NCBI GenBank assembly: GCA_030280995.1
Contig: JASXTE010000015.1
Location: 27,832,001-27,896,000, forward strand
Origin: Hemileia vastatrix
Lineage: Eukaryota > Basidiomycota > Pucciniomycetes > Pucciniales > Zaghouaniaceae
Direction of reading: 5' to 3'
DNA length: 64,000 bases
Positions 3,001-57,810 of the stretch are shown here, in pieces. The notes beneath the pieces were generated by a model that was not told the DNA's origin, did not search any database, and worked only from the letters and a program-made list of their open reading frames with translations. Numbering within the stretch: the stretch's first letter is position 1; each line of letters opens with the position of its first letter. Both the position numbers and the translations under genes were made by a program.

Positions 3001-5360
3001 TCAAGATTTCTTGTTGAGATTCATATGAAATATTGCTGGAACAATCACTTGAAGTATCATACAGTGCTATTGTGTCATCAGCCTGCTCCTTAGTTTGTTC
3101 AACAAGATTTATCCTCTTGTCACAGACATGGCCTTTCTGCCAAGGCTTGTTGCACTTGATGCAAGTGTTTGTTGCATACTTTTTATGTGAAACAAGGGCA
3201 GAAGGTTTACCAAACTTTTCCAGAGGTTTCTTTTGGAAAGTGGAGGATTTCTCCAAAGGGGTCCTAGGAATGGATCTTCTGGAATCATACTTGTTCTTTA
3301 GAAGTATCTCATTACAAGTATTAATGAAGGAAGAAGGTTCTCTGGAGAACTCATTCCTGGCCACTATCAAGTCTCTCAAAGATATTGGTAATTTATAAAG
3401 GATCCTGTCCTTCTATAACTCAAACTCCATATTTCGGTCCATTTCCCTCAAGATTTTTTGAAGTTTCATTAAGAACTCAATAGGTTTATCAGTAGAAGAG
3501 CTATATGTTGTTTTCTCATACTGCCTTTTTTGAGCCATCTTAAACTTGGAGCCATCAAATTGTGCTTTTATAAATTTTTTCCAATCTTCCCATGAGTAGT
3601 CATTTCTATCCAGGAGAACGGAATCATACCACATTAAGGCTACATTGGTAAAAAAAGAAATTAACATAGACACAATTTCCTCATCTGGGAGTTTGTAAGA
3701 ATTTTTTAAGTTATCAATTCTGCAAATGAATTGCTGCCAATCAGAAGAAGAATCACCATCAAATGTTGGGTACTGGTCAAGTTTTGGCCAATTCTTTTGA
3801 TTTGAAGGAGCCTCCTTAGTATTAGCTTGTTTCTGAGTAAAAAGCAGCTGTAGCTTCTTTAATTTTGCAGTAATCTCATTGTTTAATCCTTATGTTGAAG
3901 AATCTTGTGCATCATCAATTTTTGATGGAAGCTCAGTGGTATCAACAGGAATTTCTGAATCTAATTTTACTTTAGATGAACTAGCAACAGGTAAACTTGG
4001 AGAATCCTGTACCATATGTTCCTTCAAAGAAGTTTCAGAATATTTTTGATCATTAAACAATGAATTCAATTTTTTTCAATGGTTGCTAATCTGGATTTCA
4101 CTCTTGGAAGACTAGATAAACTCTCATTGATTATTGCAAAAGATAACTGGGTCTTATTTTGAAAAGATGAATAATGATCACTCAATCTTTTCAGGTTCAT
4201 CTTATCTACCTCTAGCTCCGGGCAACAGGCAGATACAGTATCTTGCAGTTTAGACAAATCATTTTTGATATTTTGTATAAAGCAACTTTCTTTTCTTGGG
4301 TTGCCTTATAATGAAACAAATCATAAGAAACTCTCTGTAACTCACTCCTCAATGCTTGATAACCCTGTTCAGTTAAAAAACTATTATATTTCTGAGTCAA
4401 TTGCATATTTTTCATTAAATGATTTTGTTTAGCAATAATATCCCTTAAATATTCATCATTAATGTTAGCTACATCTGGAGTGTTTCTCAATAAGGGAGCA
4501 GGGTAACTTTCCAGATTCTCATAAAACTCAGGCTCAAGTGTTTCATCAATAATAGCCATATCAGGATTTATCATTGAAGTAGCAATTAAAACTAAAGGAT
4601 TAGATACATTTAAAAATTGAGCAATTTGTCTACTGTTCTCAGTCTCTACTGGTCTCACAGTCTCATCTCCTCTTCCAGAATTACCTGAGGGAACTGAATC
4701 AGTTACAAGAAATGGTACTTGAGACTCAATAGAGAGGCTTACCATGGCTTGGGAAAGACTTAGATGTGGTTTTTCTTTCTCATTCTTCCTCCTTGATAGG
4801 GATGAGGAGTTGTTGGATTGAACTGATTTTCTCTTGAAGGACCTGCCTGAGGTACTTAGTGCTGTTGCTGTTGGGACAGATAGTCTCACTGGGTGTTCAG
4901 CCAATCCCACTGCCACTTTAAGACTTCCACCTTTTCTTGTTGCTGGGGGGCCAGTTGTGGAAGGGCTTTTGGAGGAGGAGGTTTTTTCTTCTCTTGAAGA
5001 AAAGACTCTATGCTTATTACCTTGTCTTCTAAATAGTCTATTCTTAAACTCAGCTTGAGGTTTTCTGTCCTCAAATCCTTGATGTGAGTGGAGAGATTTT
5101 TTACCTGCTGATTTAAGAGCATCTTTTTTATCTTGAAGCCTTTGGGAAGCTCTTCTGGGGGGTATATAGAGGGCTTTTGTTCCTGTGCACTTGTCTCTAC
5201 CAGAATCTCCACTTCCTCCATTTCCACATCCTGATTGGTTCAATGATTTATTAATTTGAGCTAATTTTGTAGTTAAAGGAGAACTCACAGAAGTAGCCTC
5301 ATAATAATCAATCGGATCCAGTTCATCTTCATGTGAAGCAGAAAACCCTTGGTCAGTCAT
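1..5360 (-). pseudogene. E1 gag-pol remnant (Ty3/Gypsy chromovirus)
   Basis: This is a decayed gag-pol polyprotein of an LTR retrotransposon read on the minus strand; it would supply capsid, protease, reverse transcriptase, RNase H and integrase. The start at 5360 matches the starts of elements A and B. Pieces in order are: Gag N-terminus (5360-4212), a short frame-shifted continuation (4257-4066), a capsid-like block (3673-3413), a piece with the zinc knuckle, the DSGA protease motif and the RT N-terminus (3379-1907), RT with YIDD (1893-1630), RNase H (1373-831) and integrase zinc domain (728-486). From 485 leftward the integrase catalytic core continues off the window, so the 3' part and 3' LTR are not seen. 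Several frameshifts and stops rule out function. Family assignment is firm from motifs and from close similarity to A, B and D. Confidence 0.93.
4685..5360 (-). pseudogene. E1 copy of the spliced overlapping ORF inside gag
   Basis: Exon 1 is the first 24 gag codons (5360-5289). A 58-nt intron follows (5288-5231, GTGAGT..CAG), and exon 2 (5230-4743) is read in a different frame from gag. The exon-2 frame carries PPEELPKGFKIKK, NLSTHIKDLRTENLKL and LKWQWDWLNTQ, blocks shared with A, B and D. A TGA immediately after the NTQ block breaks this copy. The frame reaches TGG TAA at 4743, where a second 58-nt intron begins (4742-4685, GTAAGC..CAG). Splicing is inferred from conserved signals, not observed. 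The product's function is unknown; the helix-like segment suggests a coiled coil. Confidence 0.6.
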
Positions 5361-9492: not shown

Positions 9493-10162
9493 ATGACTGA
9501 TCAAAGTGGTTTTGCTGCACGTGAAGAAGAACTAGACTTAATTGATTATGATGAGCCTACTTCTGTAAGTTCTCCTTTAACAAGAAGAATTTCTCAAACT
9601 AATAAATCCTTGCCCCAAACAGGATGTGGAAATGGAAGAAGTATAAATCCTAGTGGACAATACTCAGGATCAGAAACCCAGGACAAACCCACCAGAAGAG
9701 CTTCCAAGAGGCTTCAAGATAAAAAAGATGCCGTTGTCCCAGCAGATAAAGAATCTGTCAACCCACATAAAGGAGTTAAAGACAGACAGCTTAAAATTAA
9801 AGGTAAGGGTAGATGCCTTGGAAGAAAGGGAGAAAAGAATAAATACTTCTCTCCAGGAGAAAAGGAAACCTCTTCCTCCCAGGGATCAACAACAATTGGC
9901 TCCCCAATCCCAAGAGATGGTGGAAGTGTCCAAGTGGCAGTGGGACTGGCTCAACACACAGTGGGACTACTTAGCTCAAAATCAGCATCAATTACCTCAG
10001 GTAGGTCCATCAAGGCCCACCCAGGCAAACCCCACTCCTCCCCACCCTTATCAAGGAGGCAAAAGAAGAAGGAAGCCCAATATGGTGATACCCAGCAAAC
10101 CCTGGTACGTCCCTCTATTGATTCTCAAGTGCCTTTTCTTGTGGCTGACTCTGTTCCTTCAG
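9493..10162 (+). pseudogene. Element A copy of the spliced overlapping ORF
   Basis: Exon 1 is 9493-9564. Intron 1 is 9565-9622 (58 nt, GTAAGT, branch-like ACTAATA, ACAG). Exon 2 is 9623-10104 in the frame offset from gag, and intron 2 is 10105-10162 (58 nt, GTACGT..CAG). Exon 2 encodes PPEELPRGFKIKK, NLSTHIKELKT, SKWQWDWLNTQ, HPYQGGKRRRKP and a terminal PSKPW. A TAA at 9644 breaks it near the start; B and E1 have a sense codon there. The donor of intron 2 is weakened to GTACGT. Function is unknown. Confidence 0.65.
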
Positions 10163-26973: not shown

Positions 26974-27150
26974 CTTGCCCACCCAAAAAAAACAATAAAA
27001 AAATGATAAGTTATACATTTTATTTATTTATTTGTAATTTTCAGGTATTCAGAATAATTCTGTAGCATTAAAGATTAAACTTTAAAGAAATAAAACATAA
27101 TAAAATATTATGAGTACTGGTTTTTACCCCTCAGCTGGTGGAACAGAAAT

Positions 27151-30100: not shown

Positions 30101-33020
30101 GTCTTTGACCAATCCTAGTTCATTTGAACCATGAGCAAATGCCATAGGATATGATTTAATCAATCTCAAAATATTTTCTTCTTCAATTTTTGAGAGTTGA
30201 GGACTGAAAGAGGCCTTTTGGATTTCAATGTCCAAATCAACAACTTCAGTGGTGGTTCTTCCACCTTGCAGTTGTTCTTCTCTAGGAGAAATGGCATACA
30301 CTGAATTTTCAGAACATATTTTGAATTTTCTCTTACCATTCAAGCCTATAGTGAGGCAACTGTTTTCAGGATCTAGTTTAATGCCAAATTTTGTCAATAA
30401 ATCATTGCCAATAATAAACCAATCACTAAAATTATTATTATCCATTACAACAAATTCACACACTGCTCTAACATATCCATTATTATATTTACAGAATACA
30501 GCAGGTTTGTATTTGTCAATTGGATTTAAAACTGAACCAAAACCCCTCCAGCTCTTTTTCTTAACAGGTTCTAGTTTTTCCTGGTACTTACTGTCAAGTT
30601 TCATTAATGTATTAATTGAAACTACACTACCTGCAGCCCCAGTGTCAAGAATGGCATTAATTTCTTTTCCACATATGATAACAGGTGCTCTGATAGGTGT
30701 TATTTTGTAAGTATCATGAGATACATCTTTAATTATTTAAGCTTCCTCAATGGAAGTTAAAGATGTGTCTGTATGAGTTATAGCATCATTCAGGAACATA
30801 ATATCCTGTTCTAATAAAAATATCTCATGTTCATCATCACTGTAAGATATGTTACTTTTACAATCCTCACTGGATTCCACGTTCTCATCTTCATGATTAC
30901 TTGTTTCAGAATTTTGTGAGGTTTCAATAACATTTATTCTCTTCTTACACGTGTGACCCTTAATCCAAGGTTCATTACATTTATTACAAGTGTTATTCTC
31001 TTGTCTTTTAGGGACAAGGGGAGCTGAAGGTTTTTTCTTCTCCACTGGCAATTTACTTGTAGTAGGTTTTACTATCTCAACACTTTGTTTGTAATTATTG
31101 TACTTGGTTTCATATTTGTGGTTTAATAATATTTCATTGCATATATTAATGAACCCAGAGGTATCTCTGATGGTTTCAGTTCTAGCTACAATAATGTCTC
31201 TAACTGATATAGGCAACTTGTATATTACTTTCTCTTTCCACTCATCATAATCCATTTTTAGATCCATAGCTTTCATTATTTTTATTAAATTCATTAAAAA
31301 GATCATGGGTTTATCTCCAGCATTTGGATTATATCTGGCTCTTTCATACAATCTTTGTTGAGTGATTCTGAATTTTGGGCCACCAAATTGTCTTTCAATT
31401 AGTGCCTTCCATTCATTCCAGGAATAGTTAATTCCCTCACTCAATACAGATTCAAACCATAATAAGGCCACATCTGTAAATAAAGATATTAATTTTGATG
31501 TAATTTCTTCATCAGGTAATTTGTATGAAAATTTTAAGTTATCAATTCTTTGAATGAATTGTTGCCAATCAGATTTTGAATCCCCTTCAAAAGAAGGGTA
31601 CTGATCTAACTTAGGCCAGCTCTCTTGGCTAGTTTTTGCTTCCCTGACCTGAGGAATATTGAGTAATTCACTTACTTTAGAAAGATGTTCATTTATTTTA
31701 TCTTTTACTAATTTTATATTCTCAGAGCCCATGACACTATGTTCATGTTCAATCATTGGTTTATCATCAGAGTGTTTCATAAAAGCTGGTACTCTTTCCA
31801 CATAAGAGGTATTATCTTTTATTTTTTCAGTATTTTTCAAAATGTTAGCTACTTCAATTTCTACTCTTTGTAACCTATCTTTTATTACAGATACATGAGT
31901 TAAGGTATCATTTACATTTGAAAAAGACAAATTTACACATCCCTCTATGGTAGCCATAATATTCTGAGAATGTTCTAATTTATTTTCTAAATTTTTAATC
32001 TCAGAGTTTAATCTTTTGTTTTCATTGATTAATTCATTATTTGAATTATCAATAATTTTTAACCTATTGGCTGTTGTACTCAATGATTGTGTGAGGTTTA
32101 ATAATACACTTTCTGTATTAATGTTTGACTCTGTAGAGAATTCTTCCAATTTTTCAATTCTTAATAATAATTTACTAGTTATTTTTGATTGCATTGGATT
32201 TTCTTTTAGAAAATATTCAATTTTTCTGTGTAAAAGTCAGAAGACTCATCATCAGGTTCAAGATTTAATTCATTTGGTTCCATTTTTATATTAATAGCAT
32301 TTTCCTGGTGGTCAATAAAACTATGTACATTGTCCTCATTTAAAGACAAGTTTAACATGTTATTTTCAAATGAATTATTTTTTAAATCCTTATCAATTAT
32401 ATCCAATAACTCTCTATCAACTTCATTACCTATAAGTAATTCATTGTTAGGATTATATAATTTATCCTGAGAAAATGGATGACTTACCAAGGTCTTATTC
32501 CATTTCCCCTGCCTCTCCTTGGCTTTCCCCTGTAAGGGTGACTGCTGGAGCCCTGCTGTTGAGGGTTGTTGTAGTTTCGGGTGTACCAATCCCACTTCTA
32601 TTTGCTTACTGTAATTTTTTGATCCTCCTCTTGGGCTGGAGGTGTTTCTATGGAACTGTTGGGTGCTACTGTTGGTGGTTGAGCCTTTATTTTTACTAGA
32701 GCTTGATTGACTTCTACAAAACCCTGAGCTGCTCTTTTCTCAAGATTGTTTATCTGGTCCACTATATTGTTTACCCTTATTGTAAAGGTGTTCAGTAGAG
32801 TGGAGAGGGAGTGAATTTGTTCTTTTAAGGTATTTTTTGTTTTTTTATTGATACCTGTTTTAAAAGTTTTTCCCTTTCCTCCAGAGACATTTGTGGAGTG
32901 ATGGTGTCTATGGGGGACTCCTGGCCCTCCATTTGAATGTCCTGTACCAGGTTTCTAAGCTCTAGGTCTTAAACTATAAGGTTTTGCCTTATTACTAATA
33001 ATATCATTGTTGTCACACAT
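27151..33020 (-). pseudogene. Element C gag-pol, decayed
   Basis: The minus-strand polyprotein reads in pieces: probable start at 33020, Gag pieces (32595-32206 and 32194-30737, the latter with the capsid-like domain and the zinc knuckle CNKCNEPWIKGHTC), protease through RT (30604-29357, YIDD present), RNase H (29333-28983), integrase (28700-27708, with the HHCC-type zinc region, SDRDPKF and TDGLAERM) and the C-terminus with chromodomain (27642-27151). The protease region has TGAAGS in place of DSGA, so the catalytic Asp context is altered. Stops and frameshifts separate the pieces. Confidence 0.92.
32430..32941 (-). pseudogene. Element C copy of the overlapping ORF
   Basis: After an acceptor-like GGTACAG, the ORF from 32941 (first Met a few codons in, MEGQES) encodes SIKK, then EQIHSLSTLLN after a 1-bp frameshift in an A-rich run, then KWDWYTRNY, HPYRGKPRRGRGN and RPW-stop. 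A TAG replaces one codon before KWDW. The terminal TGG TAA coincides with a GTAAGT donor at 32487, and a second intron of exactly 58 nt (CCTAAC branch, TATAG) ends at 32430. The first exon could not be placed. This diverged copy is the strongest evidence that the frame is conserved. Confidence 0.6.
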
Positions 33021-35194: not shown

Positions 35195-35199
35195 AAAAG
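35195..35199. repeat. Element C target-site duplication, right
   Basis: AAAAG, identical to 25468-25472; the B pol sequence resumes next. Confidence 0.93.
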
Positions 35200-38100: not shown

Positions 38101-40791
38101 CAAAACCATGGTTATATTTAAAAACACTGTGGCTTTGTATTTACCAATGGGGGATAAAACAGAACCATAACCTATCCAATTTTCAGAAATGATAGGCATC
38201 AGTTTTGATTTATAGTCTTGATCCACTGAAGCATGTGCTCTTTCAGAAACTACACTTCCTCCAGCTCCAGAATCCAGAACAACTTCAATGCTGGTTCCAT
38301 TGATCAAGACTGGTGCTTTGAGAGGGACAATAACAATTGAGTTATCCTCAATGTTCTTTATGATCTCAGCATCTTCAACTGTAGATAAAGCATTATTATC
38401 AATATCAATAGTATTTAAATAATGAATATCCTCTTCCAGCATCAAGATTTCTTGTTGAGATTCATATGAAATATTGCTGGCACAATCACTTGACGTATCA
38501 TCCTGTGCTACTGTGTCATCAGCATGCTCCTTTGTTTGTTCTGCAAGATTTATCTTCTTGTCACAAACATGGCCTTTCTGCCAAGGCTTGTTTCTCTTGA
38601 AGCAAGTGTTTGTTGCATACATTTTTGGTGCAACAGGGGCAGAAGGTTTACCAACCTTTTTCAGAGGTTTCTGTTGGTAAGTGGAGGGTTTCTCCAAAGG
38701 GGTCCTAGGAATGAATCTTCTGGAATATTACTTGTTGTTTAGAAGGATCTCATTGCAAGTATTAATAAAAGAAGAGGGTTCTCTGGAGAACTCAGTCCTA
38801 GCCACTATCAAGTCTCTCAGAGACATTGGTAATTTATAAAGGATCCTGTCCTTCCATAACTCAGACTCCATATTTGGGTCCATTGCCCTTAAGATTTTTA
38901 CAAGTTTCATTAAAAACTCAATATTTTTATCAGTAGAAGAGCTATATCTATTTTCCTCATACTGCCTTTGTTCAGCCATTCTGAACTTGGAGCCACCAAA
39001 TTGTGCTTTAAGCAATTTCTTCCAATCCTCCCATGAGTAGTCATTCCCATCCAGGAGAACAGATTCATACCACATTAGGGCAACATTAGTAAACAAAGAA
39101 ATTAACTTGGACACAATTTCGTCATCTGGGAGTTTGTAAGAATTTTTTAAGTTATCAATTCTGCAAATAAATTGTTGCCAATCAGAGGAAGAATCACCAT
39201 CAAATGTTGGGTACTGGTCAAGTTTTGGCCAATTCTTTTGATTTGAAGGAGTCTCCTTAGTACAAGCTTGTTTCTGAGTAAGGAGCAGCTGTAACTTCTC
39301 TAGTTGGGCAGTAATCTCATTGTTTAATCCCTCTGTTAAAGGTCCTGGTGCATCATTAATTTTTAATGGAAACTCAGGGGTATCAACGTGTATTTCTGGA
39401 ACTAATTTACTTTTAGATGAACTAGCCACAGGTAAATCTGGAGAATCCTGTACTATTTGTTCCTTCAAAGAAATCTCAGAATACTTTTGATCAATAAACA
39501 ATGAGTTCAATTTCTCCTCAATGGTTGTTAGTCTAGTTTTCAATCTTGGAAGACTAGATAAATTCTCATTGATTGTTGCAAAAGATAACTGATTCTTATT
39601 TTGAAAAGATGAAAAATGGTCATTCAATCTTTTCAGATTCATCTTATTTATCTCCACCTCCTGAAAACAGGCAGATACAGTATCTTTCAGTTTAGACAAA
39701 TCATTTTTTATATTTTGCCATAAAGCAACTTTCTTTTCATGGGTTGCTTTGTAATGAGACAATTCATTAGAGACTTTCTGTGATTCACTTCTTAATGCTT
39801 GATAACCCTGATCAGTTAACGAACTATTATATTTCTGAGTCAATTGCATGTTGTTCATTATATGGTTTTGTTTGGCAATAATATTTCTCAAATATTCATC
39901 ATTGATGTTAGCTACATCTGGAGTGTTTCTCAGTAAGGAAACAGAGTAACTTTCCAGCATCTTATAAAACTCAGGTTCAAGTGTCTCATCAATAATAGCC
40001 ATATCAGGATTTATCATTGAAGTAGCATTCAGAACTAAAGGATTAGATACATTTGAAATTTAAGTGATTTGTCTACTGTTTTCTAGAGGTCTCACAGTCT
40101 CATCTCCTCTTCCATAATTACCTGAGGGAACTGGATTAGTTACAAGAAATGGTACTTGAGAATCAATAGAGGGGCTTACCAAGTTTTGCTGGGTATGACC
40201 ATATTGGGCTTTCTTCTTCTTTTGCGTCCTTGATAGGGGTGAGGAGGTGTGGGGTTGACCTGGCTGGGTCTTGACGGACCTGCCTGAAGTAACTGATGCT
40301 GATTTTGAGACAGGTTGTCACACTGAGTGTTTAACCAGTCCCACTGCCACTTGGACACTTCCACCTTCTCTTGGAACTGGGGAGCCAATTTTTGTAGATC
40401 CCTGGGGGGAAGAGGTTTCTTCTTCTATTGAAGAAAGGTATCTATCTTTCTCACCTTTTCTTCCAGAGCATCTACCCTTGCCTTTAGTCTCAAGTTTTCT
40501 GTCCTTAGCTCCTTTATGTGAGTTGACAGATTCTTTACCTGTTGAGGCAATGGCATCTTTTTTATTCTGAAGTCTTTTGGAAGTTCTTCTGGTGGGTTTA
40601 TCACAGGATTCTGATCCTGAGTTGTGTCTACTAGGATTTCCACTTCTTCCATCTCTATATCCTGTTTGGGGCAAGGATTTATTAATCTGAGAAATTCTTC
40701 TTGTTAAAGGAGAACTTACAGAAGTAGGCTCATCATAATCAATCAAGTCTAGTTCCTCTTCACATGCAGCAGAACCACTTTGGTCAGTCAT
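35200..40791 (-). pseudogene. Element B gag-pol (5' part), broken
   Basis: Close relative of the A polyprotein, starting at 40791. Pieces are: Gag N-terminus 40791-40318 (ended by TGA), coiled coil plus capsid-like domain 40017-38728, zinc knuckle to protease 38697-38098 (DSGAGG present; the second Cys of the knuckle is Arg), protease to RT 38059-37400, RT and RNase H 37399-36596 (YIED in place of YIDD, so a catalytic Asp is lost), and integrase 36325-35294 with SDRDPKF and TDGLAERM. The frame continues at 25472 beyond element C. Nonsense codons and small frameshifts inactivate it. Confidence 0.94.
40122..40791 (-). pseudogene. Element B copy of the spliced overlapping ORF
   Basis: Exon 1 is 40791-40720, intron 1 is 40719-40662 (58 nt, GTAAGT..ACAG), exon 2 is 40661-40180 (482 nt, the same length as in A), and intron 2 is 40179-40122 (58 nt, GTAAGC, CTAATCC branch, CTCAG). 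The alternative frame reads MEEVEILVD, PPEELPKDFRIKK, NLSTHIKELRTEN, SKWQWDWLNTQ, HPYQGRKRRRKP and KTW-stop. One TAG near 40425 is its only break. Function is unknown. Confidence 0.65.
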
Positions 40792-44106: not shown

Positions 44107-44778
44107 AAATTGACTACCACTCTTAAATTTGCCTAAATTAGTCAAGGATTTATCTGTGCAAGCGCCTGCCAAGGACTGCATGTAGTTACCCCACATCTCA
44201 CACCCTTTTTTGGGTTTTTAGTTTGTTTCTCAGTCAATTTTGGTTATTTTTGAATGGGGATTTCACATAGTATAATGTCATGATTAGCCCCAACATTTCT
44301 ACTGTTAATCCCCCTTATTATTAAGTATTAATTAGTCTTAATTTTCCCTTTTTGGCCTTTTATATTAATGTATAATACGCATATACTCTCTTTTTTGCTT
44401 ATTCTTTATTTTTGATGGATTATCACTATTACTACAGGATTTTGGCGGGTGATATCATTCTAACTATGTTACTAGTCACTCCTTTTGGTTCTAAGCATGT
44501 CCATTGGCTAGAATGAGACATCATTAACTGTTTATTGAGCTGGTAAATTATAGGGGTCATTGCGGAAGTAATTGTGTATAAAAGGAAGGGGTTTTTGATC
44601 TTATTTTCTTCATTCTTTATCATTACAATTAAACATATAACCAATACAATTACAATACATATCAATAGTACTTATAAAGTCTTTGAAGTATCTGAATTTA
44701 TTAAGTCTATTTTTCTACCAACTATAAAGATTATAAGCCATATATAATTAGTGAGATTAGAATTACTGAGACCCTTAT
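44107..44778 (+). mobile_element. C-type LTR fragment, plus orientation
   Basis: It matches the reverse complement of about 25560-26290, including the TATAAAAGGA promoter region, and stops where a D-type LTR begins. Its last 115 bp (44664-44778) are repeated at 57811-57926. Confidence 0.8.
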
Positions 44779-45294
44779 TGTAGGTCAGTCGTCTAGAAGA
44801 AGGTAAGGAAAAGAGGAGAAAAGGAGGAGAAAAGGAGAAGGACAAGGGAAAAATAAAAGAAATAAACTACAATAGAATATTTAATTTATTTAAAAGGAAA
44901 ACAACGGCGAGTAACTTGAGAGATGACAAAAACTTAGGATTTATGAATAATAATATTATTTAATGTAAGGGTTCTGCGCGGCAAACACTTTTAATTACTA
45001 TCAGACTTAAAGCAACCTTTAAATTGTTATATAGAATTTTAATTAGAATTTTATTACTAATAAAAAAATATAAACGTAGTAAAATAGTATTTAATTTGTG
45101 GAGTGTATAATAAGTGATGAGGCTACAGGGGATTATCCAAGGCCCTTTTATAGGCAATGGGTCCTCTGAAGCGCCACTATATTTGTAAATACAATGATTA
45201 GAATAGAATAAAACAAATATATCAAAGAGTAAATGAAACATAACAATGTAGAGAAAAATATGAAACAAATAATTAAAACCCCAATTAAGAATCC
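44779..45294 (-). mobile_element. Truncated D-type LTR
   Basis: It starts TGTAGGTCAGTCG and follows the D LTR as far as CCCCAATTAAGAATCC, where the intact D LTR begins. It lacks the other half of the LTR; a second-half fragment lies at 57357-57810. Confidence 0.8.
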
Positions 45295-46169
45295 TGTCGG
45301 TCAGTCGTCTAGAAGAAGGTAAGAAAAATAGGAGAAAAGGAGGAGAGAAGGAGGAGGACAAGGGAAAATAAAAGGAATAATTTGTAATAGTATATTTAAT
45401 TTTATTTAAGAGGGAAAACAACGGCGAGCAACTTTGAGAGATGACAAAAGCTTAGTATTTATTAATAATAATATTATTCAATGTAAGGGTTCTGCGCGGC
45501 AAACACTTTTAATTACTATCAGACTTAAAGCAACCTTTAATTTGTTATATAGACTTTTAATTAGAATAGTATTACTAAAAAAAAATATAAACATAATAAA
45601 ATAGTTATTTAATTTGTTGAGTGTTTAATAAGTGATGAGGCTACAGGGGATTATCCAAGGCCCTTTTATAGGCAATGGGTCCTCTGAAGCGCTACTATAT
45701 TTGTAAATACAATGATTAGAATAGAATAAAACAAATATATCAAAGAGTAAATGAAACATGACAATATAGAGAAAAACATGAAACAATTAATTAAAACCCC
45801 AATTAAGAATCCAATTTTCCCGCCATTAATTCCCAAATCAGTAAGTGAAAATGGTGAATAACTAAACAAGATTGGAACATAGGAACTATGAGAAAAATAA
45901 TTCCAAACAGATAGTACAGTCTGATTAAAGGATATTTTAAGTGAAAAAAAAAATACTTTGACGCAAAAAAACATGTAATTAATCTCAATTTAGTATAAAT
46001 TAATTAATTGGTTTTTTCTAACACACTTAAGGGTCAAAAGAAGCGTCATTAATTATTGTTTAGTATTATATGAGAGGTGTTATTTAATATATAAATTTAA
46101 ATAATTAATTTAAATATATTATAAGTCAATTTTACACTTATAATTATAATAGGGGGTGTCAGTTCTGGC

Positions 46170-46198
46170 AAATCCGCACTTAAATTAAGTGCGGATTT
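46170..46198. repeat. 29-bp palindrome in the left end of the Harbinger-like element
   Basis: AAATCCGCACTTAA, a central A, then the exact inverse. A similar palindrome lies at 48960-48987, with further AAGTGCGGATTT copies at 48886, 48994 and 49012. These are probable transposase or accessory-protein binding sites (inference). Confidence 0.85.
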
Positions 46199-46481
46199 CA
46201 AACCAAATCAGCACTTACAAATCAGCACTTAAATTTTGCAAAAAAGTCACTTATTTCAAAAAAGGGTGTCAGTTATGACCTCAAATCAGCACTTTTTTCC
46301 CGTTTTTTTTCACAACCACATTTTGGCCACAAAACATCCCTTCCTTTCTTACCCCATCCCTGTCACATGTGACACACTGACCTTCCTCGCTACCTACCCA
46401 TCAATCCTCGGCACACACCCCTTCCTGACATTTTCAATATTTTGACCAGGCATGTTTACATTCTTTTTTAACACCTTTACT

Positions 46482-47224
46482 TGAAGAAGATCAATCCCCT
46501 CCACCTTCTAACCATAGTTCAGCTGAAGATGATCCCAACTATCAAGCAGAACAATTATATCGCAGAAGATCTGAATCCTCAGAGGCCCAAAATTTAAATG
46601 TATGTTTACTTTTTGTTTTTTCTTCAATTCTTCTCTGAATTTCTCTTTCTTTCTAGTCTCCTCCTACTCAAACTCAATCTCCATTAAATAATCTCAATTC
46701 TGGAAATGTGAATACCTCTTTAGAAGCTGCTTTAGAAGAACTTCCTGAAGCCTCTTGTTCAAACTCCAAACTAAAGCGTCGAGCCTCAACTTCAATGAAC
46801 TTGAACCATCTATTAAAACGTGGTAATACTTCAACAAGCTCATTTGGCTCCCTTGAGGATTATTTTGAAAAAAAAGATATAAGTAAGTTTTGTTTACTAT
46901 ATATCTTAATCATTAACTCATTTATTTATTTATTTCAATTTAATTTTCTCAGCGAAATCAACTATTGCAAATAATGCCCTTGACTTTGAGAAGATGAAGT
47001 TTGATCATATGCTAAGGAAAGATCAGCAAGCCTTAGATTTGGAAGAAAAAAAATTTGAGGTAGAGCAGATGGAAAGAGTAAATGACCGTCAATTTCAAAG
47101 AGAAATGGCTACTTGTGAATTGGAAAAACAAGAGAGTTTTAAAAAAAAAGATTTCATTATGGAATGTGTTAAAAATGGCCAATCTTATGAGGACATTAAA
47201 AAATTACTTGACCTTTTCAATTGA
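46482..47224 (+). pseudogene. Harbinger accessory (NAM/Myb-like) protein, C-terminal part
   Basis: Three exons can be joined in frame: up to 46599, 46657-46882 and 46953-47224. The introns are short (57 and 70 nt) with GTATGT or GTAAGT donors and CTAG or TCAG acceptors. The protein part is acidic/Ser-rich, then a coiled-coil-like segment (EEKKFEVEQMERVNDRQF) and a short helical tail ending in KKLLDLFN. PIF/Harbinger elements carry a second gene for a Myb/SANT DNA-binding protein with such a tail; the DNA-binding N-terminus is not found here. The assignment rests on context and on the tail, so it is moderate. Confidence 0.55.
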
Positions 47225-47378
47225 TAAATTGTTTTTCTAGTTAATTTAATTTTGGTAATATTTTCTTATATGCTGACTTATAAAAGGAAAAGAATATAGT
47301 ACGTTATTTTTGACAAAAATTTGAATGTATAATAAAAATTTTCTATCTTTACTTTCTAGTCAATAAGTTTGCTTATCT

Positions 47379-47564
47379 AAATTTTTCTAAGTCATCAATT
47401 TCACATTTCAGATTTAAAAAATTGGCAATGCCCTCCCCTGCATTTTATTGAAACAAGGGGTGGGTACCACCAAATTTTTCTAAGTCATCAATTTCACATG
47501 TCAGATTTAAAAAATTGGCAATACCCTCCCCTGCATTTTATTGAAGTAAAGGGTGAAAGTCATC
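47379..47564. repeat. 93-bp tandem duplication
   Basis: Two copies (starting 47379 and 47472) beginning AAATTTTTCTAAGTCATCA and containing GGCAATRCCCTCCCCTGCA. Confidence 0.88.
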
Positions 47565-47639
47565 AAAATACAATATAATTACATAAATTAATTAATATAT
47601 AAATAAGATATGTCAAGTATACTACTTTTAAAGTAATGA

Positions 47640-48145
47640 CAATTCCTTAAGCCAAAATGCAGATCAAGTCTAGAAACTAGGTTCAATGCAAAGTATTTTT
47701 TGAAGCAACTTATTTAAATAATACTTTATTAAATTAAGTTGATCAATAAAGATTGATTGACAATATTGCAATTCTTAAATACAATAATTTTATTAAAAAA
47801 TTTCAGATTACATATAAAAAAAATCAGTGACTTTTTCTATTACTTACAACTGTTTTTACAGAATTGAAAACTATGTTTCAGCTAATATTTTATGGAAGTG
47901 AACTCTGTTCTTCGCCCGAAGAACAGAGTTCATCCTCCTATTTTCACACTCTGTCTAAAAAGAATAAAATGACTTACCTGGAGAGATGAGTTGAGAAAAA
48001 AGAAATATAAGTGAATGGAAGTGAACTCTGTTCTTCGCCCGAAGAACAGAGTTCATCCTCCTATTTTCACACTCTGTTTAAAAAGAATAAAATGACTTAC
48101 CTGGAGAGATGAGTTGAGAAAAAAGTGGAATGAGGGGAAGATATG
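47640..48145 (-). mobile_element. Hairpin-family sequence inside the Harbinger-like element
   Basis: 47690-47960 is the reverse complement of 6045-6285, so the same family sits here in the opposite orientation. The hairpin and about 90 following bases are tandemly duplicated with a 123-bp period (47900-48022 and 48023-48145). Confidence 0.8.
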
Positions 48146-48203
48146 AGGAGACCAAGAAGGGGGAGAAAGGGAGAGATGAGACCAAAGAGGGAGAAAAGGG
48201 AGG

Positions 48204-48692
48204 TTAGAGTGAGCCAAGGAGGGGTGAATGAGGCAGCCAAAGGGGGGAAAAGGGGGATGATTCCAAGGAGTTGATGGCAGTGATACATCGTTTGGTATAA
48301 GTGTTAACTGAACCATACCCTAAATCAAAGACATTTTCTAAACGTTTCAAAGCGGCTCCATTACCATTTGAACCCAAACGGCATAGTGTGATGGCCAATT
48401 GAATTGAAGGATGTCGTTGTTCTTTTTGAGAATTATTGTGAAATATGGGATGATCCTGAATAAGCTCAAGCAATTTAAGGAAAAATTCCTGAGAAGTCCT
48501 GAACAGCTGTCTAAAACTGGGTGTAGATAGGTTAAGAAGTGTTTGGATGGTGTACTTGGGGGTATGAAGTACTTGAGGCTTTCTGGGAAGAAGGTAACGT
48601 TTCCTGGCCATTTTTGATAAAACGACAAAATCTTCTTCTAGATCAGAATCGGAATCAGAGTCCAAGAGCAGTTCAAGCGCCATGAAAGTCAT
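48204..48692 (-). pseudogene. HARBI1-like transposase, N-terminal fragment
   Basis: The 162-residue ORF starts at 48692. It has an acidic DSDSDSDLEEDF stretch, then FRTSQEFFLKLLELI, LAITLCRLGSNGNG and a YTKRCITAI segment, the helix-turn-helix-like N-terminal region of PIF/Harbinger transposases, familiar from rust genomes. About 250 residues with the DDE catalytic triad are missing. The last 20 residues, rich in Ser and Pro, are read from the purine-rich sequence that replaces the catalytic part. It cannot be an active transposase. Confidence 0.82.
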
Positions 48693-49326
48693 TGCTTTAT
48701 GTAATTTATCACGATTTGAAAGTGAGGAAGGTATGACTCTTATATGATATGATATGAAGATGTAAGTGATGTACGATGTTTTGAGTTATGAAGTGTTATT
48801 CTGCGGAGTGCTGCGTATGAATGGGATGATGCTGACAAATCAGTGAAATGGGACTTGATGGTGAAATCAGCACTTTTGGTTGAGAAAGTGCGGATTTGAG
48901 TGAAATAAGTGACTTATTTCATTTTGAAATCCACCAGTATTGGGGCTAGTGTGTTTTGGAAATCCGCACTTATTTAAGTGCGGATTTGGTCAAATTTAAG
49001 TGCGGATTTGTAAGTGCGGATTTGCCAGAACTGACACCCCCTAATATATGTTTTTTCAATTAATTAAATATAAATTTATAATTATTAAATACATAAAAAT
49101 GCGCCATGATTTGTAGAATATATTATATTATGTTCAATTTAACTGTATATAAAAATTTATATAACCAATAAAATTAATATAACACTTGTATATAATAAAA
49201 TACTTATATAATTTCATTATGCAGTAAAATATTAATTTATATTCATTAAATACAATTCTTACCCACTCTTTCAGGTTTTATAAGTTACATATCATTTACT
49301 GGACTCCTGGAATAGCCTGGCTGACA

Positions 49327-49359: not shown

Positions 49360-52300
49360 CTAAGATTTTTTCTTTTTGTATTTTTTCAACAGAGTAGGCA
49401 GATTTGAAATTTTCTTGCCAGGTATCCATGCATCATGTTCAGATGATTTGTTCTTATATCTCAATAAATATTCAATACCTCTTTCAGAAGTGATAATTCT
49501 ATCATTGAGAATTTTATCAATTTCTGCTGTTTCTGTGACTTCCTGAGGGTTCTTCTTAGGTCTTCCTCTTCTTTTTGGAAATAAGTCACTGTTGGAAGTA
49601 TAAGGCTTAAGCAAAGAAATGGGAAAGACAGGATGTTTCCTATCATATGGAGAATACAATATAACTTCTACTGCATTATCACCAACCATTCTTTTAACAA
49701 CAAATGGTCCTACAAAAGGATCTTTTAATTTGTGGTTACCTTGTAAATTGAAATGGACAGTAGAGATCAACACTTCATCACCCTTGTTAAATGTGTATTC
49801 TTTATGGGATTTATCCCATCTTTTCTTTTCATATTCAAATGCTTTATCAATACAACTCTGAGCATGTTTTCTGCATAGCTGTTGCATTTGCATAAAAGAT
49901 TTTACACCAGGGTGTAGTTCCAACTTAGGTAATTTATTATTGAGAATCTGAGCAGGAGTGTTTGGCACATAACCTAACCAAAGCTCAAAAGGCTTTTTCT
50001 TAGTGACAGAATGAACAGTGCTATTATATGCAAATTCAAGACCAGGCAAAAGAGTGACCCAATCATGAGTAAATCTGTCATTGTCTTTATATTCTAAACC
50101 AAAGGCACAATACCTTCTAATCATATCTTCCAGAGTTTGAATCATTCTTTCAGCTAGACCATCAGTCTGAGGATGATGAGCTGTAGACAATTTTAACTCA
50201 CAGCCACAAATATCCATCAAAGAGGTCCAAAACTCAGAAGTGAATTTTGGATCCCTATCAGAGATAATGGCTTTTGGAAAACCAATAATATTAAACATGT
50301 AAGACCACCATAAGAAAGCTAATTCTTTGGTGGATACATCTTTGTGGGTTGGAATAAATTTGCACATTTTTGTGAATCTATCCACTATTACCCAACAAGA
50401 GTTAAAGCTGTCTTTACCTGCAACAGGAAGACCAGTAACAAAATCCATATTAATGATTTTCCAGGGAGAACTAGGTGCTTCAATATATTGTAATAACCCT
50501 GCTCTCTTACCTGTTAACCTTTTAGATTTTTGGCAGGAATCACAAGATTCAACATATAATTTTGTGTCTTCAGACATATTAGCCCACCATGCAGTGTTTT
50601 TGATTCTAATCAATGTTTTTTCAAGATCAAAATGACCAGCTAATATGTCATCATGACAAAGTTTGAGGATAGTTTCTTTCATTGAAGGAGGAATTACAAT
50701 TACATTGGTAAGCTTCCTTCTATAATATATATAACCATCTTCAATAGAGAACTTTCCTTTATTTAAAGCATTTTGGTACTTTGCAGGAAGAGTTTTTATT
50801 AATGCTTGAATTGAAGCATTCTTAGGATCATTTAAGATAGTAACCAATTTATTTAAATCAGAATCTTTATCATATGAATCCAGTATTAATTGTAATAACT
50901 CCTCTTCCATATCAACTATAAATATACCATGGATATGAACAGTATCATCTTCAGGTACATAAGCAGGATTTGAGTCATTATTTGGCAGAGGCAATCTGGA
51001 GAGCATATCAACATTAGAGTGAACATTTCCAGCTCTATGGATAATTGTCATCCTTCCTCTGTATTCTTGAACAGCAAGTTGCCACCTGAACATATGTCTG
51101 TTAGGTGTCTTTAGGTTTAAGAGGGACTTCACAGCACTACAGTCAGTTACCAACTCAAATTTTTGGTCATCCAGATAGTAATGAAGTCTCTCAAGAGCCC
51201 AAACAACTGCTAAGCACTCCAATTGAGTGGCACCATATTTCAATTCACTACTTCTTAAGGTTCTTGAAATATAACAAATTACAACCTCTGAGGATTTATC
51301 ATTAATAATTTGCTTTTGGTGAAGGGCAGCACCCAGACCAATAAAGCTAGCATCTGTATAAAGGACAAATGGCTTGTTAAAATCTGGAAGAGCCAATATA
51401 GGGGCTTTCATTAAGCAACTTTTTAATGTATCAAAAGCTTTTTGACAGTCATTATTTTAGAGAAAAGCAACATCTTTTCTGGTCAGTTTTGTAAGAGGCA
51501 AGGCTATGACCTGATAATTTTTAATATATTGTCTATAATAGCCACACATACCCAAAAAACTTTGGATTTCTCTTACAGAAGTTGGTGCTTTCACATTTTG
51601 AATGGCAGCAACTTTATTATGGTCTACACAAATTTGTAAGCCTGACACAACATGGCCAAGGACTTTCAAAGATTGAAAACCAAATTTACACTTTTTTAAA
51701 GATAAGGTCATATTGATTTCATCCATTTTTTGGAAAACTCTATTCAAGTGAATCATATGTTCATCAAAAGTTTTAGAAAAAACAATAATATCATCAATAT
51801 AAACCATGAGCCAACCTTCAATAATTTCTTGATGGAAAGTGTTATCCATGACTTTCTGGAAAACTGAAGGAGCATTTTTAGGGCCAAATGGCATCCTAAC
51901 ATACTTATATATTCCCATATGAGTAGCAATAAGCAAAAAATTTTGAGAATTTTTCTCAACTGGAACTTGATGATAACCTTTATTACCATCCAGACAACTA
52001 ATAAATTTTGCACCTTGCAAGGTAGCATGTATTGAATTAATTCTGGGTAAAGGATAAATATCATCAACAGTATAAGTATTCAAAGCTCTGTAATCTCCAC
52101 ATAATCTAGCTTTATCTTTTTCATAAGAAATCAAGACTGGGGAGATGACACAATATTTAGGGGTGACATCCACTTTCTCAATGATATTCATTTTCAATAA
52201 TGTTTCAATATTATCTTCAATATCTTTTCTTTTTGATGGAGAAGCAGGATATGGTTTTTTCTTAAGGGTAGGAGGAATATCACTCAAATTACAGGATAAG

Positions 52301-55300
52301 GTAATTTTCATTTCTTCCTGAACAATTCCCAAGACATGAGAACCATGAGCAAAAGCCATAGGGAAAGAGGTAATAGAGGCAACAATAGAATCTTTTTGTT
52401 CACTAGTCAACTGATCACCAAAAGAAGCAGTATTTATTTCATGTAATAAATCATCCATTTCAGTTGTTGTTCTACCTTTACATTGGATCAGTGAGTTACA
52501 AGATTTCAACAAATGCCCAGAAGTTCTAGGAGAAGAAATTTTGAACTTTCTTTTCCCATTCATTCCTAAGGTAAAGCAATTATTTGCTGGGTCCAGTTTC
52601 ACACCAAACATGGTTAAAATATCATTTCCCATAATAAACCAATTGCTCAAATTATCATTTTTCATGACAACAAACTCACAAATAGCTCTGACAAAACCAC
52701 CATTATATTTGAAGAATACAGAGGTTTTGTATTTGCCAATAGGAAATAAGGTAGAACCATACCCTCTCCATTTTTCAGAAGTTATAGGTAATAATTTACT
52801 CAAATATTCCTTATCCACTGAAGCCAAAGCTTTTTCAGAAACTACACTTCCTCCAGCACCAGAATCAAGAACTACATCAACATTCTTACCATTAATGATA
52901 ACAGGTGCCTTTAAAGGGGATATAGGAATAGAATTGTTAGTAATATCTTTAATTATCTCAGCATTTCCTACTGAAGATAAATTCAATACACAATCTTCAG
53001 ATATATTATTTAAATAATGGACATCATGTTCCAACATTAAAACATCTTTAACAGATTCATTGTCATAGGAGATATTACTTTCACAGTCACTGGAAGAATT
53101 ATTGACATCAAGTTCAACTTCATCAGTGTCTTCATTTTGTTCAACAAGATTAATTTTCTTGTCACAAACATGACCCTTCTGCCACGGTTTGTTACATTTA
53201 TAACAAGTATTTGTTGCATATTTTTTAGGTGCAACTGGGGCAGAGGGTTTACCAGATTTTTCTGGGAGCTTTATAGAAGGTTTATTCTGATCATTATAAG
53301 ATTTACTAAGGTAATTCTTTGGTTCATATCTATGGTTGAGTAGTACTTCATTACAGATATTAATGAAAGAAGAATTTTCCCTTACATGCTCAGTTCTAGC
53401 AACAATCAAATCCCTAAGAGAATTTGGTAATTTATACAAGATTTTATCTCTCCAAATATCATAATCCATTTTTGGATCAATTTCTCTAAGGATTTTAGTT
53501 ATTTTCATCAGAAAAACAATGGGCTTTTCAACAGAGGAGGATACATATCTAGTATTCTCATACAGTCTCTGCTGAGCTAACCTGAATTTTGAACCACCAA
53601 ACTGATTCTCAATCAAGGATTTCCAATCATTCCATGTATAATGATTGTTATCTAAAAGAACAGATTCATACCACATCAAGGCTACATTGGAAAATAATGA
53701 AATTAGCTTAGAAACAATTTCCTCATCAGGTAGTTTATAAGATCTCTTTAAATTATCAATTCTTTGGATAAAGTGTTGCCAATCAGAGGAAGAATCACCA
53801 TCAAAGGTAGGATATCGGTCTAACTTAGGCCAATTTTTCTGACTACTGGGATGGTCCACTTTTTGGTTTGAATTATTCATTATTAATAATTCCTGAAGTT
53901 TAGCAAGGTGTTCAGAAATTTCATTATTTACAGAAACAGCTGGTGCATGACCATCACAAGATTTTTTGCTAGTAGCAAAAGATTTTAAAGACTCATTGTC
54001 AGTTTGTTTAATGGTTGAAATATGAGGAAGAAAGGATGAACTTTGCTCAGGTTTTTTCCCTTTATTTTTATGCAGCTTATTTACAGAAATCTCATTTAAT
54101 TCATTATTGATGGTTAAGGTTGAGAACTTTTCCTGCAGGTCAGACACATAGTTTCTTATTCTTGGAATTTCAGACATCTGGTCATTTACTTTTGCAAGAG
54201 ATAGAACATTTCTGTCCTCAGAAACTGAGTGTTTGGTACTTAGTGCATGGAAATCATTTTTTAGCTTCTTAAACTCATTTTGCAGAGATTTTATTTCATT
54301 CTTGAATGAATAATTTTCCTCAATAAGGGGTTCCAATTCACTCAAGGTCTTATGTAGACTGATATTTCTATCTGAGATAGCTCTATGGTCACTTCTTATT
54401 TGTTTTTGTTGACTAAGAACAATATTCAAGGTTTCTTTGATTTTTAAATAAGCTGTATCTTGTACAGAAGAACTCACTTTACATTGCAAGTGTAAATTAT
54501 TTAATCTATCATTTTCATGGATTAACACATCTCTCACATGTTTGTCTTTCACAATATTGAAATCAAGGGTATCTTTCAATATTTCCTCAGAAGTTTTTAC
54601 AATTAAGGTATAGATTTCAGGGGGAACAGAATCATTTTTAATTGCAAGAGAGGGATTAATTAAAGATGTAGAAGTTAAATGCAAAGGTTCATCAAATGAC
54701 AATTTGCTAATTACATCAATAGGGCTACTAGTTACAGGAAGCTTTCTTTTAACAGGTTTAACTGTTCTTTCACCATGTTCAATAATATTACCTGCAGAAG
54801 AAGATTTATTAGAAAACATACCCAAGTGACTATCAACCAAATTACTTACCATGGCAGAGGAGGAAACTTCCCCTGGGACTGGTTTTGGGATTGTGCCTGG
54901 GCCTTCTTTCTCCTGCCTTGTTGGTAGGGATGAGGAGGTGGATGGAAATTGGGTGTTCTGGATGGGCCAGGCTGATGATGAGGAGGGTGTTGCACATTCT
55001 GTTGGTAGTGACTCATTAGATAATCCCATTTCCATTGCTCTACTTCCATAGTATTTGGATTTTGGATGGTTGAGCTGGGTGGCCGTGAAGGTTGAGCCTG
55101 AAACTGAGGCTGATTGGGAGGCAACTGAGGAGGGGCCTGGGCCTGAATCTGGTTCCTGAGTTCTTGGACCTGATCCCACAATGTGTCTACCTTTGCTTTG
55201 TACGTCATATTTTCTGTCTTCAACTCTTTTATATGACTGGATAGGTTGCTTATTTGTTGTGGCAGAGGAAGCTTTTTTATTTTGAAGCCTTTTGGAAGAC

Positions 55301-55527
55301 CTTCTTGAGGCACTAGAGGCTTTACTTCCTTCTGTGGTACTGGGGGAAGGGGGTTTGGTTTGTTTGCATTTCCTGTCATTTCCACATCCTGCAGTATGTG
55401 AATTCTTTGTGTTAGTATAAGATTTTTTATGACCAACTTTAGAAGAACTTACAGTGTCAGCATCATTGTCAATTTCTATTTCATCCACTTGCATGTTATC
55501 CATTTTTTCTGCCAAATTGTTGGACAT
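49360..55527 (-). pseudogene. Element D gag-pol, one nonsense codon
   Basis: A single frame of 2,056 codons is interrupted only by TAA at 51459-51457, between RT and RNase H, where relatives have Trp. Approximate residues are: N-terminal extension with coiled coil (330-470), capsid-like domain (570-740), zinc knuckle CYKCNKPWQKGHVC (774), protease LDSGAGG (886), RT YIDD (1241), RNase H YTDASF (1390), integrase zinc domain (1625), SDRDPKF (1755) and TDGLAERM (1790), and a chromodomain (1996-2052). All catalytic motifs I can check are present. One substitution separates this copy from a complete frame, so it is the most recent element here. Gag and Pol share one frame, so their ratio must be set by processing or by splicing. 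Confidence 0.95.
54846..55527 (-). CDS. Candidate spliced overlapping protein of element D (unknown function)
   Basis: Exon 1 is 55527-55453 (25 codons shared with gag). Intron 1 is 55452-55389 (64 nt, GTAAGT, ACTAAC branch, TGCAG). Exon 2 is 55388-54850 in the other frame, ending TGG TAA at 54846. This is the only copy without a break, about 205 residues. It has a basic helix-like block (LPKGFKIKKLPL, then NLSSHIKELKTEN), a Pro/Gln-rich middle, EVEQWKWDYL, and a basic HPYQQGRRKK tail ending in LPW. These blocks are shared with A, B, E1 and partly C in the same order and are better conserved than the gag reading of the same bases. A second 58-nt intron (54849-54792) begins at the stop. I recognise no known domain; RNA or nucleic-acid binding is a guess from the basic tail. 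Confidence 0.65.
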
Positions 55528-56219
55528 ACTAGTGGGAAGACTTTAATTTACTTATTATTTATTAAAAAAAAAATAAAGGTTAGTCAATAATTGCTCCAAA
55601 TAATAAAAAAAAATTTTATTAATTAAATTATAGAAAAAAAAAATTTTCAATATAAAGTAATAATTATAAAAAATTAATTTTTTTTAAAAAAAAATGGATT
55701 GCAAGGTTATATTGGGAATAACAATCAAGTTAATTCAACCAATTAATTACCAATATTAAATATGGCAATATATTTGGGACTAAGCACAAAGTACTTTTAA
55801 GTCAACCAAAATTAACAATAATTAATAATAAAAAAAAATTAATTTAATAATTCAATTTGTATTAATAAAAATGTCAATTCTTCTAGGACTAAGAGGATTT
55901 AACACTCTATAATGGTCAACTAGGAAAAAAAATTTTAATAATTGAACACTTACACTCAGTGAATCAGCAATTAAGCCACAATCACTGTTATTGCAGTAAA
56001 AATATAGTAATATGAGTGAGAGGTGCAAAGGTGAACTTACTATAGTGATCAAAAAATCACTTCAAAATAATATAAAAATTAATATAATATAAACCTAAGA
56101 TATCGAACCCAAGTTCGAAACACAGTCGCGGCAAAAGTTTTGTTTTTGCTAGGTGGTCCGTGCGTTTTGTCGTTCGTCGCCAGGCTCGATCGTCGTCGTC
56201 GTTTGGAAAGGTCCCCAGT
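55528..56219 (-). other. Element D leader
   Basis: In sense it begins with the conserved post-LTR block (ACTGGGGACCTTTCC), then (GAC)n-like sequence, a weak tRNA-like block (56095-56140), a GTAAGT donor (about 55948) and a CTAGTTGAC...GTCCTAG inverted motif (55868-55925). The motif array of A and B is mostly absent. Confidence 0.7.
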
Positions 56220-57356
56220 TGTCGGTCAGTCGTCTAGAAGAAGGTAAGAAAAATAGGAGAAAAGGAGGAGAGAGGGAGGAGGACAAGGGAAAATAAAAGA
56301 AATAATTTATAATAATATATTTAATTTATTTAAGAGGGAAACAACGGCAAGCAACTTTGAGAGATGACAAAAACTTAGAATTTATTAATAATAATACTAT
56401 TTAATGTAAGGGTTCTGCGCGGCAAACACTTCTAATTACTATCAGACTTAAAGCAACCTTTAATTTGTTATATAGACTTTTGATTAGAATTGTATTACTA
56501 ATAAAAAAAATATAAACGTAGTAAAATAGTATTTAATTTGTTGAGTGTATAATAAGTGATGAGGCTACAGGGGATTATCCAAGGCCCTTTTATAGGCAAT
56601 GGGTCCTCTGAAGCGCCACTATATTTGTAAATACAATGATTAGAATAGAATAAAACAAAAATATCAAAGAGTAAATGAAACATAACAATGTAGAGAAAAA
56701 TATGAAACAAATAATTAAAACCCCAATTAAGAATCCAATTTTCCCGCCATTAATTCCCAAATCAGTAAGTAAAAATAGTGAATAACTAAACAAGATCGGA
56801 ACATAGGAACTATGAGAAAAATAATTCCAAACAGATGGTACAGTCTGATTAAAGGATATTTTAAGTGAAACAAAAAATACTTTGACGCAACAAAACATGT
56901 AATTAATCTCAATTTAGTATAAATTAATTAATTGGTTTTTTCTGACACAATTAAGGGTCAAAAGAAGCGTCATTAATTATTGTTTAGTATTATATGAAAA
57001 GTGTTATTTAATATATAAATTTAAATAATTAATTAAAATATATTATAAGTCAATTTTACACTTATAATTATAATATATGTTTTTTTCAATTAATTAAATA
57101 TAAATTTATAATTATTAAATACATAAAAATGTGCCATGATTTGTAGAATATATTATATTATGTTCAATTTAACTGTATATAAAAATTTATATAACCAATA
57201 AATTTAATGTAATACTTGTATATAATAAAATACTTATATAATTTTATTATGCAATAAAATATTAAGTTATATTCATTAAATACAATTCTTACCCACTCTT
57301 TCAGGTTTTATAAGTTACATATCATTTACTGGACTCCTGGAATAGCCTGGCTGACA
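56220..57356 (-). mobile_element. Element D 5' LTR
   Basis: 1,137 bp, in sense TGTCAGCCAGGCTATTCC to GACCGACA. The TATA box is in CCTATAAAAGGGCC (56588-56594). It provides the empty site for dating the Harbinger-like insertion. Confidence 0.94.
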
Positions 57357-57810
57357 TAATTAATCTCAATTTAGTATAAATTAATTAATTGGTTTTTCCT
57401 GACACAATTAAGGGTCAAAAGAAGCGTCATTAATTATTGTTTAGTATTATATGAAAGGTGTTATTTAATATATAAATTTAAATAATTAATTTAAATATAT
57501 TATAAGTCAATTTTACACTTATAATTATAATATATGTTTTTCAATTAATTAAATATAAATTTATAATTATTAAATACATAAAAATGCGCCATTATTTGTA
57601 GAATATATTATATTATGTTCAATTTAACTGTATAAAAAAATTTATATAACCAATAAATTAATATAACACTTGTATATAATAAAATACTTATATAATTTTA
57701 TTATGCAATAAAATATTAATTTATATTCATTAAATACAATTCTTACCCACTCTTTCAGGTTTTATAAGTTACATATCATTTACTGGACTCCTGGAATAGC
57801 CTGGCTGACA
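57357..57810 (-). mobile_element. Second-half D-type LTR fragment
   Basis: It repeats 56898-57356 (TAATTAATCTCAATTTAG to the GGCTGACA end) directly after the D 5' LTR. With 44779-45294 it could be one older LTR into which D inserted, but about 180 bp between the two halves are missing. Confidence 0.8.

Follow-up and report, generated by a model that had tools for sequence, protein, structure and literature searches.

The window analysed here, a 64,000-nt stretch of a Hemileia vastatrix contig (JASXTE010000015.1), carries fungal LTR retrotransposons, and the question that it raises is whether their gag genes also encode a second protein, reached by splicing in another reading frame, as proposed in a first-pass annotation of the sequence. 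The elements were named by their first gag ATG: D (55527, − strand), A (9493, +), B (40791, −), E (5360, −; formerly E1), and C (33020, −). A sixth family, F, lies outside the window and was encountered by chance beside an intron-less D copy. The comparisons described below suggest that gag overlaps a second conserved frame, which is probably expressed from a twice-spliced RNA as a protein that would likely comprise 159–205 residues, the first 7–25 of them derived from Gag.

Element D is a chromodomain Ty3/Gypsy element (chromovirus), with reverse transcriptase, RNase H, integrase, and a C-terminal chromodomain. Its matches above the curated Pfam cut-offs were RVT_1, RT_RNaseH, Integrase_H2C2, SH3_Tf2-1, and Chromo (1.2e-6), while rve (29.4 bits; cut-off 32.6) and the protease-like matches fell below theirs. 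No Chromo match was reported for the portion of Element A that was searched. Direct repeats (LTRs) flanked Element A (7634-8435 and 15552-16375) and Element C (25470-26973 and 33690-35194). The repeats flanking Element D (44778-49326 and 56219-57810) were partly tandem, the 3′ one seemingly split by approximately 2.9 kb of other sequence, and Element C with its flanking repeats (window 24993-35195) appeared to sit inserted in Element B. The genome searched comprised 747.6 Mb in 791 contigs, and the first-look candidates numbered 1073, 2506, 3423, and 4505 for families D, A, C, and E, respectively, counts that may overlap between families and from which the best 40 of each were scored.

An intron-like stretch followed the first 25 gag codons in D, 24 in A, B, and E, and 7 in C (Table 1). 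It was 64 nt long in D and 58 nt in A, B, E, and C, and most copies had GTRAGT as the donor and CAG as the acceptor, in agreement with the sites and lengths that the first-pass annotation had given for D, A, B, and E. In the single F copy read, both introns measured 55 nt by alignment. The intron lengths in all families (55–64 nt) are of the form 3n+1, so that removal of any one of them shifts the reading frame. Introns this short also fit a fungal origin. Removing intron 1 leads into another frame, approximately 455–540 nt long, which overlaps gag in families A–F.

A second intron, absent from the first-pass annotation, was recognised at the end of exon 2. There the sequence reads TG/GTAAGT (GTAAGC in B and E; GTACGT in A), AG/GTAA follows 58 nt after the donor in all five window families, and the junction falls within TGG TAA, the final codon plus its stop (slashes mark intron borders). 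The final Trp-stop claimed previously is therefore present in D, B, C, and E, but it is made by the donor of intron 2, which itself supplies TAA, and the frame stops there with or without removal of the intron (in Element D, TAA follows TGG either way, at 54846-54848 if intron 2 is retained). In family A, with GTACGT as the donor in 19/20 copies, the frame continues past this point as long as intron 2 is retained and ends in TGG TAA only after its removal. The differences between A and E within intron 2 (10105-10162 and 4685-4742) amounted to 2/20, 1/19, and 8/19 at gag positions 1/2/3, respectively, a gag-codon periodicity by which these bases seem to be both gag codons and intron.

Table 1. 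Features of the five elements by window position
Feature	Position	Strand	Remark
Element D gag-pol ORF, 1356 aa	51457..55527	−	Reverse transcriptase and weak protease-like match
Element D pol continued: RNase H, integrase, chromodomain	49360..51411	−	Pfam matches
Element D exon 1, 25 codons common to Gag and the spliced protein	55453..55527	−	Also in the 6 intron-less copies read
Element D intron 1, 64 nt, GTAAGT..TACTAAC..TGCAG	55389..55452	−	Gag-frame coding if retained; absent in 6/6 junction copies
Element D exon 2, dual-coding, alternative DVEM...PPLP(W) and gag both open	54850..55388	−	
Element D intron 2, 58 nt, GTAAGT..CTAAT..TGCAG	54792..54849	−	Absent in 4/6 junction copies
Element A exon 1	9493..9564	+	
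Element A predicted intron 1, 58 nt	9565..9622	+	GTAAGT donor in 20/20 A copies fetched
Element A exon 2, one early alternative-frame stop in window copy	9623..10104	+	
Element A predicted intron 2, 58 nt, donor GTACGT	10105..10162	+	Trp-stop only if removed
Element B exon 1	40720..40791	−	
Element B predicted intron 1, 58 nt	40662..40719	−	
Element B exon 2, window copy with one stop in each frame	40180..40661	−	
Element B predicted intron 2, 58 nt	40122..40179	−	
Element E exon 1	5289..5360	−	
Element E predicted intron 1, 58 nt, GTGAGT	5231..5288	−	
Element E exon 2, 3 alternative-frame stops in window copy	4743..5230	−	
Element E predicted intron 2, 58 nt	4685..4742	−	
Element C exon 1, 7 codons	33000..33020	−	
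Element C predicted intron 1, 58 nt	32942..32999	−	Donor altered here; GTGAGT in most of 30 copies
Element C exon 2, window copy 1 base shorter than sister copies	32488..32941	−	
Element C predicted intron 2, 58 nt	32430..32487	−	

As a genomic proxy for RNA reads across the junction, the predicted 32-nt D junction was searched genome-wide with up to 3 mismatches, and 17 places were retrieved (11 with 1 mismatch, 4 with 2, and 2 with 3), compared with 0 for the reversed sequence used as a control. Six of the 17 copies were read (L122-L127), and all of them lacked exactly the 64-nt intron 1; L124-L127 also lacked exactly the 58-nt intron 2, which was kept in L122 and L123. Exact absence of an intron at predicted GT..AG sites is what reverse transcription of a spliced RNA would leave, and the D-family copies without exactly the predicted introns indicate that the element RNA is spliced. 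Around L127, LTR-like sequence was found approximately 1 kb upstream and integrase-region sequence approximately 5 kb downstream, flanks that would fit a complete element made from a spliced RNA template. Neither random deletion nor assembly error was retained as an explanation, given the exact borders, their repeated occurrence, and the element flanks (one copy). The junction searches covered families D and C, with intron-less copies shown for D alone; the same genome-wide test with the intron 1 junction of family C gave 0 matches.

Intron-less copies are few, 17 compared with the 1073 D candidates of the first look. When 57 D copies were placed in a tree from which the intron columns were excluded, the six copies read fell in three places, namely L122/L123/L124 (support 0.94), L125/L127 (0.97), and L126 (0.22). 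From this placement, and because 11 of the 17 junction places carry one identical single mismatch, the separate losses may number only two or three rather than 17. L122 and L124 were uninterrupted from the first ATG to the predicted PPLPW-stop, and stops occurred within this stretch in L123, L125, L126, and L127. None of the six can reach gag from the first ATG, and they were thus presumably mobilised in trans by the proteins of intact relatives. Two pairs of intron-less copies lay 7.9 and 8.2 kb apart (G000:C338:52525597-52534223 and G000:C579:33421938-33430188, respectively), a spacing such as tandem duplication of whole elements or a shared LTR would give. The F copy (G000:C26:30655200-30656100, L130-L132) was located near one of the intron-less D copies, at a distance of approximately 5 kb. 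In this F copy, gag was open in the stretch read, the alternative frame was open until a shift near the end, and ATT stood in place of the first ATG.

The same copies bear on the idea that the alternative frame is translated by leaky scanning, from the internal Met of DVEM on unspliced RNA, with splicing being incidental. A Met does stand 4 codons into exon 2 in A, B, C, D, and E (with the E copy L077 as an exception), but the F copy has DVEI at this position, most copies in the families examined preserve the intron borders, D copies lacking exactly the predicted introns occur, and the Trp-stop of family A needs intron 2 to be spliced. We consider this explanation improbable.

We then compared how open the two frames are. 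The alternative frame over exon 2 had been described as open in E, A, B, and D, and this was true of D in the window (0 stops), but A, B, and E carried 1, 1, and 3 stops, respectively. Among sister copies picked by DNA similarity (20 D, 20 A, 20 E, and 30 C), exon 2 had no alternative-frame stop in 19/20 D (the window copy included), 18/20 A, and 7/20 E copies. Family C had been regarded as the same frame with decay; the frame is indeed the same, but it is not merely decayed, as 17/30 C copies had neither a stop nor a frameshift, and both frames were open in several of them. The third frame over exon 2 contained 10–18 stops. When synonymous codons were shuffled with the alternative protein held fixed, gag acquired on average 4.8–6.9 stops, compared with 0, 0, 1, and 0 observed in D, A, B, and E, respectively, a deficit found in all four elements (P 0.0004–0.0014). 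In the reverse test, of alternative-frame openness given gag, the alternative frame was no more open than gag's own codons allow by shuffling (P 0.10–0.85), and resampling gave P values of 0.003–0.20. The case for the alternative frame consequently rests on the pattern of substitution and not on openness.

To describe this pattern, differences over exon 2 were counted at alternative-frame codon positions 1/2/3 between one copy per family, those of A, E, and C having been chosen open. The counts were 26/33/78 (A-E), 29/21/76 (E-B), and 16/23/36 (A-B) of 160; 61/56/97 (D-A), 66/51/92 (D-E), and 71/55/91 (D-B) of 156; and 75/55/100 (E-C), 74/62/89 (A-C), and 77/59/87 (C-B) of 136. For D-C, the codon-position skew was not significant (81/77/92 of 142; p 0.17). 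The same skew was seen when A, B, D, and E were represented by their window copies. Since an alignment made in the alternative frame may lean towards that frame, a plain DNA alignment was run as a check; in it, all six pairings of A, B, D, and E kept the order, the pairs with C were weaker, and D-C lost its skew. Between D and F, the differences were 33/167, 31/167, and 70/166 at alternative positions 1/2/3 (D position count), equivalent to 70/166, 33/167, and 31/167 at D's gag positions 1/2/3; as F was encountered by chance, it had not been selected by its alternative frame. On the 3′ side of exon 2, the A-E differences followed gag instead (13/133, 11/133, and 39/133 at gag positions 1/2/3).

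Amino-acid identity gave a similar picture. Over exon 2, A and E were 68% identical in the alternative frame vs 48% in gag, and the alternative-frame identity exceeded that of gag in 10/10 family pairs, narrowly so for D-C (0.25 vs 0.23). The first-pass annotation had judged A and D to be closer in the alternative frame than in gag, and this holds over the whole of exon 2, where D and the A-family copy L090 shared 66/156 residues vs 42/159 in gag. On a coarse simulation grid, A-E was fitted best by an omega of 0.1 in the alternative frame and 0.5 in gag, and A-B by values of 0.3 and 0.7, respectively. Simulations of A-E with constraint on gag alone (0.1–0.3) missed by up to 10–13 standard deviations, and gag as the sole coding frame was dropped because the gag-only settings fit badly. 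Variants within families, counted among the sister copies picked by DNA similarity, were near neutral in both frames, as expected after insertion, and speak neither for nor against the alternative frame. Copies L009-L038, which had been selected by their alternative protein, were left out of these counts to avoid the bias that such a choice brings. Judged from the substitutions that separate the families, constraint over these bases is stronger on the alternative frame than on gag, and not equal or lower, the outcome that had been named beforehand as evidence against that frame. Both frames appear to be in use, gag having fewer stops than chance and the alternative frame being conserved.

Constraint on exon 2 could also act at the RNA level, through packaging or splicing signals that mimic coding, but this is extremely improbable; RNA signals are common in the 5′ gag regions of retroelements, yet they do not predict a third-base excess in phase with one frame over approximately 480 nt. 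It is very improbable, too, that splicing merely lowers Gag-Pol in a two-pool strategy of the BARE or Evade type and that the other frame goes unused. Splicing that favours Gag over Gag-Pol is known in LTR elements (PMC3735527; PMC8892269), but the spliced RNA here would quit the gag frame after 7–25 codons, and the frame that it enters is conserved as protein between families.

Under the reading that we prefer, that of a spliced protein overlapping gag, the unspliced RNA would be translated straight through both introns into Gag(-Pol). The spliced RNA would give a product composed of the first 7–25 Gag residues, an acidic N-terminal part, a coiled coil, W-x-W-D, a basic tail, and Pro-Trp. The blocks of the alternative product that had been listed earlier were confirmed, in the claimed order, by alignment across copies; the full order was DVEM (DIQM in C), a long helix, a P/Q-rich stretch, V-x-x-W-x-W-[DN], HPYQ/HPYR, the basic tail, and PW. 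In D, A, E, and C, the charge ranged from −4 to −14 over the N-terminal 40 residues and from +6 to +8 over the last 40. AlphaFold2 returned one confident helix at residues 42–83 of exon 2 (block means 90–96 over 41–80) and a weak second helix at 111–131, with the remainder disordered (mean pLDDT 63, pTM 0.27). The protein is thus predicted to be a coiled coil with a basic tail. Neither D exon 2 nor an 18-row alignment found protein relatives among 5.8 billion proteins, a database that may contain few frames of this overlapping type. The matches listed, to LINE-1 ORF1p, prefoldin, and bZIP-type coiled coils, were weak and lay mainly on the helix, with scores such as any coiled coil would be expected to give.

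The main competing explanation gives the product a structural role, as a further particle protein that is nucleocapsid-like or a partner of Gag and whose ratio to Gag-Pol would be set by splicing. The first 7–25 residues in common with Gag, the predicted long coiled-coil helix, and the basic tail would suit such a protein, as would the intron-less copies with element flanks, which suggest that spliced RNA is sometimes reverse-transcribed. Neither Pfam (searched with D exon 2) nor PDB (searched with the alignment) showed similarity to a capsid or nucleocapsid family, the matches being weak and mostly to coiled coils; this argues against the explanation, which we regard as possible but on the unlikely side. 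Our best guess for the role of the spliced protein is instead that of an RNA-binding regulator of unspliced RNA. It might act as an RNA-binding oligomer on the export, translation, or packaging of that RNA, following the logic of lentiviral Rev. Such a regulator is favoured because the product would come only from spliced RNA, while the genome needs to stay unspliced.

Splicing has provided LTR retrotransposons with a second mRNA in other lineages. The RNA of BARE (Ty1/Copia, barley) is partly spliced and the second mRNA encodes Gag (PMC3735527), and Evade/ATCOPIA93 of Arabidopsis likewise forms, by partial splicing, a sub-genomic mRNA encoding Gag (PMC8892269). The elements described here would resemble them in having a second mRNA by splicing, but, in contrast to the Gag of these two systems, the two tiny introns inside gag would lead to a different protein in another frame. 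Small accessory proteins are also found in Ty3/Gypsy elements. One study describes sORF1 and sORF2 in the Drosophila MDG1 group, as separate ORFs that lie upstream of gag there and downstream of pol in some Lepidoptera, sORF2 being a transmembrane, fusogen-like protein (PMC11952523). The earlier statement that no accessory protein of this kind was known in Ty3/Gypsy elements must be narrowed accordingly, since the MDG1 group has two, although neither is a spliced overlap of gag. Unlike these sORFs, the candidate protein overlaps gag and would be reached by splicing, and, unlike sORF2, it has no transmembrane stretch apparent by eye, the model consisting of helices and disorder. In a literature survey judged by titles and abstract openings, mostly without subscription papers, no spliced, gag-overlapping Ty3/Gypsy protein was described.

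A conserved frame inside gag of an abundant Ty3/Gypsy lineage, together with genomic traces of the spliced RNA, suggests that conserved proteins can lie concealed in retrotransposons of simple appearance, where annotation based on ORFs overlooks them. The very many copies would offer a system for the study of dual-coding evolution, and the question of how an element with introns in gag keeps enough of its RNA unspliced becomes testable.

Complex retroviruses are characterised by overlapping genes that are expressed through splicing. The lentiviral tat and rev genes encode small proteins from spliced RNA in overlapping frames, and the genomic RNA must stay unspliced (for Rev, see PMC4488727). 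It is conceivable, if rather doubtful and put forward by analogy, that an LTR retrotransposon lineage of fungal type independently evolved a gene in the style of complex retroviruses, namely a two-intron overprinted protein that would be produced only from spliced RNA and would keep the genome RNA unspliced by rescuing it from the spliceosome. Unlike tat and rev, to which no sequence relation was found, the frame described here overlaps the 5′ part of gag, would be joined across introns of 55–64 nt, and is carried by a chromodomain Ty3/Gypsy element. Its coding layout and the intron-less copies would fit a Rev-type product made from spliced RNA, should the frame be expressed.
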